A DNA stretch of 61,946 nt from Deltaproteobacteria bacterium (GTDB lineage Bacteria > Desulfobacterota > Desulfarculia > JACQYL01), in contig JACQYL010000011.1 of NCBI GenBank assembly GCA_016208165.1, positions 1-61,946 on the forward strand. Reading direction: 5' to 3'. The notes under the pieces are model-generated. The model searched no databases and was not told the origin of the DNA. It was given only the letters and a program-made list of their open reading frames with translations. The stretch's first letter is position 1, and each line of letters opens with the position of its first letter. Below, piece after piece: positions 49,846 through 54,255 of this stretch. Position numbers and translations under genes: made by a program.

Positions 49846-50458
49846 TCGCACTGGATCGGTTTGAAAAAGATCGGCGTATCGATAAATTAGGCGATCCCGA
49901 CACAGTGCCGTTAGGTAATCACACGTTGATTCCGGATGTTATCAGCCGATCGTGAATCACAGGGTGGTTACAATGTCGTCTGGAGCTTAGCGGATGTGAT
50001 TATCCACAACAGGGTTAGCTTTCATTTCGTCGGGCGAACAAACCGCCAACATAAATCTTGCTTCATATGGAAGGCGGCAAAGCGCAAGATTTTATAGGCG
50101 ATTTACGGCGAACCGTGGTTCGCGGCGGCCATCCCACCTATCCCGGATTTCCCCTGGTGCAAGGTGGTTAAAGCGGGTACGGCCGAGGCCTTTACCGTGT
50201 GGCGTTTTCGTTCCCTTATGATCCTGGCGCTGGTATTGGGGACTCTGGGGTTGCTGATGCCGGCAGGGTTGGTCCTTCAATAACGCAATCTCGGCAACTG
50301 CACCGATCCGGGACCGCATTGCGTGGCAGCATGGAAAAGCACGTCGTCAGGGTTTCTCCGGCCCAGAAGGGTTTCGGCCGTTGTGCTTGGTTTGGGCCAA
50401 GGCTGGATAAGCGACAAAGGAACTGGGTGGGATTGCAGATGAGGTCGAGGGAAATAAT
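49846..50458. other. Region with gene debris, no supported gene
   Basis: 613 bases. One plus-strand stretch ending with TAA near 50283 encodes a hydrophobic tail (RSLMILALVLGTLGLLMPAG) without a credible start, probably a fragment of a lost membrane protein gene. Nothing else can be supported. Confidence 0.4.
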
Positions 50459-50751
50459 GGGGACGTCCGTGCTTTTATACCTTTATTCTCCCGATCCTGA
50501 ACAAGAGATGGGCGTGGTTTTCTATACTCGGCCAGGCCAAACAGTCGGTTCTCGTTTCGGGGGCGAATTTCGAGGGCCGGTTAACGAAATTCAACCGATC
50601 AGAATCGCACCGGAATATCCTCCGTCTTTCGACCCCTGTGACGATCACATGATGCAGCGCCCCCGGCGCGTCTATTCTTGCTTTCCGAGGCATGGGCCTC
50701 TCATATCAAGTGAAATGAATTCTTATAAAGCTTAAAAGCATGGACGTCCCC
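50459..50751 (-). mobile_element. Non-autonomous RAYT-derived element, copy 1
   Basis: A 293-bp element with perfect 10-bp ends GGGGACGTCC that extend, with one difference, to 19 bp (GGGGACGTCCATGCTTTTA). Between the ends on the minus strand lies only the start of an IS200/RAYT-type transposase (MPRKARIDAPGALHHVIVTG, then ERRRIFRCD...LNFVNR), so it is an internally deleted derivative that would need a transposase in trans. A second copy of equal length lies at 53686-53978. Both are preceded by GGAAATAAT, which may be the target flank. Confidence 0.75.
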
Positions 50752-50832: not shown

Positions 50833-51153
50833 CTATTTTACGGTCCCGCGGTAGGTCCCTGCCTTTTGGAGAGCAGCCTCCATCTCTTCTATGGAGATCA
50901 GATCAGGGGAATAGTCTACTGTGTTGATCTCTTTGAAGTTCATCCTTGCTCTCTCGACCCTTGTTACGCCTTTCAGCCCTTCCAGGGCCGTTTTCCCCAC
51001 ATCGGTTCAAGATGCATAGCCACTTAATAGCAAGTTTACTATGATTGGAATAAAATCTGATTTATCACTCTCGGCTGTTGAAACCGAATTGGTTAAGAAA
51101 AATGCGATGGCAAAAATCAGTACGGCCACGGATGGGCGGATTCTCACGGCCAT
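50833..51153 (-). CDS. Candidate selenoprotein: exported MerP/HMA-like protein with in-frame UGA
   Basis: An ATG at 51153, preceded by GGAGGT, opens a frame with one TGA (51007-51009, codon 49) that otherwise runs to TAG at 50833: 106 residues if the TGA is read as selenocysteine. Residues 1-27 form a signal peptide (VAVLIFAIAFF, then STAES). Residues 34-102 resemble a heavy-metal-associated domain (FIPIIVNLLLSGYAS-U-TDV; GKTALEGLKGVTRVE; NTVDYSPDLISIEEMEAAL; KAG). The TGA falls where HMA proteins carry the second metal-binding Cys, 8 residues before the conserved Leu; the first Cys is replaced. A SECIS-like hairpin follows. The alternative is a pseudogene with a nonsense mutation. Confidence 0.55.
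50974..50990 (-). promoter_or_regulatory. SECIS-like hairpin downstream of the in-frame UGA
   Basis: On the minus strand CGGCCC-TGGAA-GGGCTG forms a 6-bp stem (one G-U pair) with a 5-base loop UGGAA. The loop starts 22 bases after the UGA. Bacterial SECIS elements sit inside the coding region, with 16-37 bases between UGA and a small loop that has a G in its first two bases; this hairpin meets these rules. The family knowledge is established, the assignment is inferred. Confidence 0.5.
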
Positions 51154-51373: not shown

Positions 51374-53619
51374 CTGGATATTCGAAATAGTGATTCAAAG
51401 ATCCTGAAGGCAATCTTTTTAAGAGCAAAAAAAATTAGGAAAATTTCCCCTGGTCGTTGTTTTTCGATTTTTCTCTTGCCATTCCGAGGGCCGCCATATG
51501 CCCTCGCCACGTGGGCTGAGACGGCCACAGGATGGCGTAACGTAAGCATGATACATCCCCCCCCTCGATCAACGGTCAAATGCCCGTCCCGTTAGGATAT
51601 GGCGGCCTATTTTAGTAGTATTATCAATATGTTATATCTAATACCCGTTTGACAACTCCCACCTCGCCTGCTACGCTCGCACACCATGGATTTGATCAAA
51701 CGGGCCTCTCAACGAATCGCCGAACGACTCACCTGGTGCGTCGCCCACAGGGACCAGGCCGGTATCGCAAAAGACCTCGCCGAGGGCAAAGACATCTCCG
51801 AAGTCTATGGCCTTGGCGAAGCAGGACTCTTCGATGAGTTCTTCTACTTCCTGGATCAGTTCGGCATCATGGATCTATTCCTGGACCTTGACCCTCAACA
51901 TACCCAGCGCTCAAGCAATGTCACCTTCCCTGCCGTCATCCTTATTTATGTGATGCGCATCGTGGCCGGCCTTGCCTTCTTTTGGCATATCCACCCCGTG
52001 CTCCTTCGATCCCAACCCCTTATGAGGATTGTGGGATTCAACGGCACACAGATACGCCACGGCACCTCTCAGAGGGGAAAAAAGAACTCTTCCGCTCCTC
52101 CTGCCGATCAAAACTCAGAGGACAACATCCGAGGTCCTCTCTGCCCTGATTCCATCGCCGCCTACATTCAGGCCATCTCCGCACACGCCCTGGAACGTTT
52201 CTTTAACCGTGTGATCTCTATCCTGGCAGCCAAGTCCTTCTTCCCCAAGCGCATCCACGCCCTTTTGGATTCCTCGGAGATTCAATCCACCGAAGCGTGT
52301 GAAGGCTGCGGGAAAGTCGGCAAAGAGAAAGCCCCCCAGCTTCGTCGTAGAAAAAACCGTATCCGTAAAGTCATGGAAGCCGTCTTCGGTTTTAAGCTCT
52401 GGGTCGTCTGGGACCCTGTCAGTCGTCTTCCCCTTGCCATCCGCTTTGCGACAATCGAGCACAGCGATCTGGATTTCGCCCGCGAAGTCGTCAGCCAAGC
52501 CGTAAGCAACCTTACCCCCCATGCCACGATTGCATCTCTGGCCATTGATCGGGGTTTTGTGGACGGCCCGTTTCTGTGGTGGCTTGCACAGACCATGCAG
52601 ATCACCTTCTACATCCCGGCCAAGACCAATATGAACGTTTATAAGGACGCTCTTTCCCTTATAGAGACAGGCATTGCCCAAACCAGAGAGAGAAAACGCA
52701 CCATTGGGGCCGGGAAAAACAAGACCACCGTGATGGATCGTTGGCGCGTGGTGGGCATCGAGGGCCTTATCTCTGCCGGCTTTTACGGGGAGAAGGGAAG
52801 TGGGAGTCATGAAAATCGTCCCGACTTTGCCCCCAACCCTATCAACGCCGTGGCGGTCGTAGACGACCCTTACAAGGTCAATAACCCCAATGCCGACACT
52901 CTCGTTATCCTTACCAACGCCCCCGTACAAAAACCCCTTAAGGTCTATGACGGCTATGACGCCAGAAGTGAGATCGAAAATACCGTGTTCCGCGAGGCCA
53001 AGCAGGCATGGTTCATTCAACGTCCGCCCCGCAACAATGCCTCCGCCTTCCGAGCCCATGTCTATCTGACCATGATCGTCATGGCCCTTACCACCGCCTT
53101 CCAAACCTGGATGGACCAGCAGGATAGACTTGAGCAGGCCGGAAACGAGACCGGCATACGAAAGTTTCGCCAAAAGGTTAAACAGGAAAACGGCAACAAG
53201 CTGATTCTCTTTGACGAACACCGCTATGCAATCTTTGACACCTATGAGGTCCTTATCCTCTGCGGCCGAACCGTCCTCATGCCCACGGGCGTCCCCGAAA
53301 CCATCACCAAAAGGGATATATTGCTCAAGTACGGCGCATTACTGGAATAACCTCATACGCTCTTTCGGCCGTTCTTATTTTCCCTGACCCGAATCAGTTT
53401 TCAGGTTCCCGGTTGGTCTCTCCTCTCCTTTTTTACGCTTTCCCCATCACACGCCAACTTCCGACCTCCTTCTCGCATGGAGGATGTTTCACTCCTTTTG
53501 CCGCCCCTGATTCCCCCCTTGCACACAATTCTTGCCTCTCCGTACGTCTCGCTGAAGCCCTCTGACACCCATTCTGACAAGAATCCTCAAACCCAGGTTT
53601 CACTATCTCAAATATCCAG
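51374..53619 (+). mobile_element. IS4-like insertion sequence with terminal repeats and 10-bp target duplication
   Basis: A 2246-bp element. The left end starts CTGGATATTCGAAATAGTGA and the right end, read on the minus strand, starts CTGGATATTTGAGATAGTGA (18 of 20 identical). It is bordered by perfect direct repeats TGAAATTGCT. It carries one transposase gene. The clean duplication indicates a recent or undisturbed insertion. It lies about 220 bases upstream of the candidate selenoprotein start and might affect its promoter. Confidence 0.85.
51686..53350 (+). CDS. DDE transposase, IS4 superfamily
   Basis: A 554-residue transposase. The catalytic triad can be read as Asp in HALLDSSEIQ (about 188-197), Asp in LAIDRGFVDGPF (about 286-297), and Glu in GYDARSEIENTVFREAKQAW (about 425-444), the last resembling the Y-x2-R-x3-E ... 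K signature of the IS4 group. A zinc-knuckle-like CEGCGK and a basic stretch (RRRKNRIRK) lie between the first and second Asp. The gene is intact, with no frameshift or internal stop, and fills most of the IS between the terminal repeats, so the element may be active. Confidence 0.85.
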   Translation: MDLIKRASQRIAERLTWCVAHRDQAGIAKDLAEGKDISEVYGLGEAGLFDEFFYFLDQFGIMDLFLDLDPQHTQRSSNVTFPAVILIYVMRIVAGLAFFWHIHPVLLRSQPLMRIVGFNGTQIRHGTSQRGKKNSSAPPADQNSEDNIRGPLCPDSIAAYIQAISAHALERFFNRVISILAAKSFFPKRIHALLDSSEIQSTEACEGCGKVGKEKAPQLRRRKNRIRKVMEAVFGFKLWVVWDPVSRLPLAIRFATIEHSDLDFAREVVSQAVSNLTPHATIASLAIDRGFVDGPFLWWLAQTMQITFYIPAKTNMNVYKDALSLIETGIAQTRERKRTIGAGKNKTTVMDRWRVVGIEGLISAGFYGEKGSGSHENRPDFAPNPINAVAVVDDPYKVNNPNADTLVILTNAPVQKPLKVYDGYDARSEIENTVFREAKQAWFIQRPPRNNASAFRAHVYLTMIVMALTTAFQTWMDQQDRLEQAGNETGIRKFRQKVKQENGNKLILFDEHRYAIFDTYEVLILCGRTVLMPTGVPETITKRDILLKYGALLE

Positions 53620-53629: not shown

Positions 53630-53685
53630 GTTTGCCGGATTCCTTATAAACGGCAAGTGCGCCTCGACCTTTCCTAGGAAATAAT

Positions 53686-53978
53686 GGGGACGTCCGTGCT
53701 TTTATACCTTTATTCTCCCGATCCTGAACAAGAGATGGGCGTGGTTTTCTATACTCGGCCAGGCCAAACAGTCGGTTTTTCTTTCGGGGACTCATTCCGA
53801 GGGCCGGTTAACGAAATTCAACCGATCAGAATCGCACCGGAATATCCTCCGTCTTTCGATCCCTGTGACGATCGCATGATGCAGCGCCCCCGGCGCGTCT
53901 ATTCTTGCTTTCCGAGGCATGGGCCTCTCATATCAAGTGAAATGAATTCTTATAAAGCTTAAAAGCATGGACGTCCCC
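53686..53978 (-). mobile_element. Non-autonomous RAYT-derived element, copy 2
   Basis: Same length (293 bp), same ends and nearly the same interior as copy 1, with a few base differences in the middle (around 53779-53803). It again encodes only the N-terminal stretch of a RAYT-type transposase on the minus strand. Copies 1 and 2 are in direct orientation and frame the selenoprotein candidate and the IS4-like element. Confidence 0.75.
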
Positions 53979-54255
53979 ATTGTATCCTCGCTTGGAAGGC
54001 GGGGAAAAATTGGCCAAAGGGCGGAAGCTCCGAAAACACCCTTCTGAACAAATCGGAATCCTTGAAGAAATTGGTTTAGAAAAGGCTGTTTTTACCGATA
54101 CCAAATGTGTCGGGACCTCTCGGGGCCGAGCGCCTGAGCCTTTCTCCGACAAGGTTTCCCCGAATTTGATGTTCACCGGCCTGGGAAGATCCATGATCAG
54201 CTGAGGTTCATCATCGCGCCCCGACCATCCGGATCTCCAAAGAAAGCGACTAAAT

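Follow-up and report, generated by a model that had tools for sequence, protein, structure and literature searches.

Selenocysteine (Sec) forms of methionine sulfoxide reductase A (MsrA; PF01625, motif GUFWG), such as that of Clostridium oremlandii, carry Sec where helix 1 of a ferredoxin-like core begins, and the roles of Cys51 and Glu94 of MsrA have been described (PMC6210582). Sec also occupies the second motif position in the HMA-like domain of NF041115 (UxxU_metal_bind (seleno)protein), while NF041383 (VPGUxxT thioredoxin-like (seleno)protein type 2) is a 287-residue model with a thioredoxin-like half. Marine surveys of 2007-2008 listed a selenoprotein named 'Mercuric transport protein MerP' with two sequences and 0 Cys homologues (PMC2398784, Table 2). 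The gene described here belongs to a family for which none of the NCBIfam and Pfam models reaches its cut-off. The survey 'MerP', compared by description only, could be the same family because it likewise has no Cys homologues; a 2026 list covering 119 families of prokaryotic selenoproteins contains no matching entry, and the survey 'MerP' is absent from it as well. The family is probably uncatalogued, the new points being its association with Msr genes and its Sec-only pattern.

The gene lies on the minus strand of the window, the whole 61,946-nt stretch of DNA that was analysed, and runs from ATG to TAG over 107 codons with a single in-frame TGA (Table 1). The frame, ribosome binding site, signal peptide (by eye) and 6-bp hairpin with a UGGAA loop proposed by the sequence-only reading were all confirmed. 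Ordinary annotation breaks a gene of this type into pieces at the TGA.

Table 1. Features of the selenoprotein gene in the window.
Feature	Position	Strand	Remarks
Selenoprotein gene	50833..51153	-	106 residues with TGA as Sec; predicted exported small ferredoxin-fold domain
In-frame TGA, Sec codon 49	51009-51007	-	TGA at the same column in 54/55 unbiased homologues
Shine-Dalgarno GGAGG	51164-51160	-	from sequence
Probable signal peptide MAVRIRPSVAVLIFAIAFFLTNSVSTA	51073..51153	-	judged by eye from the sequence; the model has an N-terminal helix at 7-21
Conserved core GYASU-TDVGKTALEG...EINTV...TYRG	50836..51021	-	5 family-conserved residues replaced in window copy
SECIS hairpin CGGCCC-UGGAA-GGGCUG, 6 bp	50990-50974	-	loop begins 22 nt past TGA

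A survey of 98 relatives gave homologues with TGA at the same column, one of them being a paralogue from the window's own genome (G000:C79, L017). Since bias at the TGA column was to be avoided, 85,000 species genomes were searched with a profile query beginning one codon past the TGA. The search returned 55 loci, of which 54 have TGA and none has Cys at the Sec site, and the check proposed for codon 49, whether TGA or Cys is conserved there, is thereby answered for TGA. The sole exception (L071) has GCA at the site, and in none of its frames can the conserved N-terminus be recognised; it is most likely broken upstream. A distant relative (L015, 38% identity) with Ser at the site and no Msr neighbour in the examined stretch was treated as an outgroup. 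Family members derive from bins labelled Desulfobacterota, Nitrospirota, SAR324 and Myxococcota; no relatives were found among viral contigs. The residues F-4 and V-2 ahead of the TGA are at least 90% conserved in the family, indicating that translation passes the TGA. In 19 of the 54 members the stop codon is itself TGA, from which it follows that the triplet keeps its stop meaning and is not simply reassigned; decoding as tryptophan was rejected on the same ground. A Sec-only family without a Cys form escapes any gene finder that relies on finding Cys homologues, and it raises the question of why sulfur cannot replace selenium at this site.

The window copy is the most divergent member by conserved residues, breaking 5 of 22 highly conserved positions where the next worst member breaks 3, and its end branch is 0.96 versus 0.30 for the paralogue of its own genome. 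The structural model of the window copy shows an insertion and an altered, low-confidence strand ahead of Sec, and the active-site strand is poorly predicted. A DDE transposase gene (51686-53350) lies nearby, and the two genes are flanked by 300-nt copies (50450-50749 and 53677-53976) that are 97% identical, the second having 29-nt terminal inverted repeats (53676-53704 / 53960-53988) in a MITE-like arrangement. No msr genes were found within the window. These features would be expected of a recent pseudogene of the family in which the TGA was inherited and selection on the protein has gone, a reading to which we give a substantial though minority chance. Against it, the frame, ribosome binding site, signal peptide and full SECIS stem are retained, and the window copy and paralogue differ by a dN of 0.19 against a dS of 1.05. 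Moreover, when copies were simulated as neutral, with 0.3-0.4 changes per site, just 6-9% of them escaped new stops. The excess of dS over dN, together with the open frame and intact SECIS element, argues that the window copy was selected for most of its history. We read it as a fast-diverging paralogue outside the msr setting, among mobile elements and possibly early in decay, that can probably still be decoded as a selenoprotein whose function is altered or relaxed.

Family members share the motif FYVxUYDVGKAALEG...REINTV.YDP...AGTY, in which Sec, E, N, T and Y are invariant. A high-confidence model of a canonical member has the order beta-alpha-beta-beta-alpha-beta over a domain of about 60 residues, and helix 1 starts with Sec. 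The fold search returned MerP and other HMA domains on top (MerP 1osd, Z 11.0, rmsd 1.6 over 66) and also matched MsrA (1ff3, rmsd 1.4, TM 0.61). Profile comparison gave an E value of 1.1e-11 for HMA, over the part past Sec, and 1.6e-9 for MsrA, in an alignment where Sec falls on the catalytic Cys and the acid Glu lies next to the invariant Glu; HMA is thus slightly better in the profile comparison and clearly better in the fold comparison. Individual sequences score poorly with either Pfam model: PF00403 reached only E 0.09 with the window copy, below its cut-off, and PF01625 gave no match to the window copy and matched 2 of the 54 members at E <= 0.01 (best 1e-3), short of the MsrA cut-off. 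The domain is thus intermediate, not MsrA by cut-off and not HMA by motif, and it offers a possible bridge from the HMA fold to the MsrA fold that is testable on an 80-residue domain.

The family aligns with Sec-MsrA without gaps between beta-1 and the G-Tyr/Trp motif. Further points of resemblance are Sec starting helix 1 of a ferredoxin-like core, an invariant Glu where MsrA has its acid, and genes that adjoin msrA or msrB. The closeness of Sec to this Glu is suggested by topology and alignment. Unlike MsrA, the family has no long loop and no C-terminal half, showed no Cys forms, and remains below the PF01625 cut-off. In place of GCFWG it has UYDVG, and the segments with the two substrate Tyr are absent. 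With Phe-Trp after the catalytic residue replaced by Tyr-Asp, and without the Tyr82 and Tyr134 regions, canonical methionine sulfoxide reduction is therefore unsure. A set of exported MsrA proteins from Desulfobacterota (L138-L150) mostly have GCFWC and not GCFWG, that is, a CxxC at the catalytic site.

Weak matches to NF041115 were obtained for 48 of 54 members (best 1.4e-9), in keeping with the shared HMA-like domain and Sec at the second motif position, but the window and canonical copies scored 26.8 and 22.5 bits where the cut-off is 95. Moreover, the first motif position is Y, A, G or another residue, never Cys or Sec, so that the window copy has Y-x-x-U and not U-x-x-U. Positions 136-204 of NF041383 matched 53 of 54 members (best 1.1e-10), whereas the thioredoxin-like half of that model is absent from the family and the score was 38 bits versus 275. 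Positions 136-247 of the same model also match MsrA genes across the phylum, and the second half of NF041383 is therefore MsrA-like. With MerP and other HMA domains (PF00403) the family shares the fold and periplasmic export, but it lacks GMTCxxC.

Genes for msrA and/or msrB were located within 700 bp on the same strand at 29 of the 55 loci, either before or after the selenoprotein gene. At one locus (L038) an in-frame fusion joins the selenoprotein domain to MsrB, and the canonical paralogue of the window's genome, on another contig, begins 132 bp past an MsrAB gene. A PF00174 molybdopterin oxidoreductase of the sulfite-oxidase fold lies directly upstream in 7 further loci. Identification of this neighbour as MsrP was dropped: the nearest NCBIfam models were SorA, SoxC and MsrP with every score below cut-off, and hence only the fold is claimed. 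Neither kind of neighbour was present at 19 of the 55 loci, some of which are on contigs that end nearby. An exported 225-aa protein without a Pfam match (L032:7072-7749) is encoded upstream of the selenoprotein gene in three loci (L032, L033 and L050).

The msr and molybdoenzyme neighbours tie the family to extracytoplasmic methionine-sulfoxide repair, and since the genes usually adjoin msr genes the protein probably helps to mend oxidised proteins outside the cytoplasm. This would link selenium to such repair in bacteria of anaerobic lineages. The window gene is a genuine member of a Sec-only family of small exported proteins, and its most likely role, proposed with moderate confidence, is that of a periplasmic selenol redox protein of methionine-sulfoxide repair. 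The association with Msr genes is observed; the chemistry could be that of a reductase, an electron partner or an Msr-protected metal-binding protein. In the proposed mechanism, SelB, tRNA-Sec and the SECIS hairpin within the conserved ALEGL codons direct decoding of UGA as Sec, as the conservation shows. After export, Sec, where helix 1 begins, would take the place of the MsrA catalytic Cys, beside an invariant Glu aligned with the MsrA acid catalyst. The protein might then act as a miniature MsrA-like sulfoxide reductase, which is somewhat preferred, or alternatively as a selenol partner, returning the MsrAB encoded next door to its reduced state or working alongside the molybdoenzyme. The specific proposal of a minimal 60-residue Sec-only MsrA-like sulfoxide reductase, periplasmic, working with MsrAB or a molybdoenzyme and having no Cys counterpart, is tentative.

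The domain could instead be an HMA-fold metallochaperone or metal trap with a single selenolate ligand, next to msr genes because its own methionines, or metal stress, require methionine-sulfoxide repair. The fold matches to MerP and other HMA domains and the HMA profile match given above favour metal binding, as do the two-component genes (sensor kinases or response regulators) near several members. There is also a precedent in E. coli, where MsrPQ, copper-induced through CusSR, repairs the chaperone CusF (PMC9302797). Nevertheless we consider it unlikely: no member has a CxxC or a second loop ligand Cys, the invariant Sec, E, N, T and Y resemble an active site, and no recurrent metal transporter neighbour was seen among the neighbourhood clusters listed. 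The sequence-only reading had assigned an HMA/MerP-like domain. The HMA-like fold bears this out, while the weak PF00403 match and the absence of mer genes from those noted in family neighbourhoods do not. That reading had also treated replacement of the first Cys of the metal motif as unusual, leaving Sec as a single ligand. The replacement is real in the window copy but is the family norm (FYVxUYDVG), Cys occupying the first position in 0 of 54 members; together with Sec at the position of the MsrA catalytic Cys and the Msr neighbours, this weakens the single-ligand idea. The Tyr three residues ahead of Sec was considered as a lost ligand and rejected, being a strand 1 residue that is common in the family.

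The capacity to decode Sec accompanies the family, selB being present in 20 of 20 tested genomes with a member. Of the sel genes in the window's own genome, on which the selenoprotein assignment had been made to depend, selB, tRNA-Sec(UCA) (selC) and selD are all present, whereas selA (L027, G000:C48:84608-85842) is in two pieces in different frames with about 50 conserved model positions missing. The split in the assembled sequence comes either from an error of assembly or from damage to the gene, and it is the one weak point for this organism.

Bacterial SECIS elements are hairpins just downstream of the TGA with a G in the apical loop (PMC1088965), and such a hairpin, with an invariant GG in the loop, was found in the window gene and throughout the family. 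The Rfam model RF00031 (SECIS_1) gave no match, the controls being silent as well. The fold z of the 39-nt window element was -2.1 and that of the paralogue element (L017) was -0.4. Codons within the hairpin are synonymously frozen relative to the codon use of each locus: Leu+8 is CTG in 55 of 55 loci (18 expected), Ala+7 is GCC in 51 of 55 (23 expected) and Gly+10 is GGG in 51 of 54 (11 expected, z 13.7), whereas Gly codons elsewhere in the same genes vary freely. Conservation of the hairpin, including covarying stem pairs, was established. A reading in which the TGA truly ends translation or stems from a sequencing error, and the hairpin arose by chance, is very improbable and already contradicted for the family as a whole, for although TGA is normally a stop in bacteria and strong folds also arise in shuffles for some members, such as the paralogue, independent genomes share the TGA (54/55), conservation on both sides of it, the synonymous freezing and the covariation. 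The homologues, frozen synonymous sites, covariation and Sec genes together strongly support the selenoprotein and SECIS assignment. In the stem, 94.8% of cells are paired and both sides have changed in 12 cells, a covariation score equalled in 0 of 500 shuffles and reached by no slid register. In one member (L079) a stem pair has changed from C-G to U-A together with an amino-acid change.
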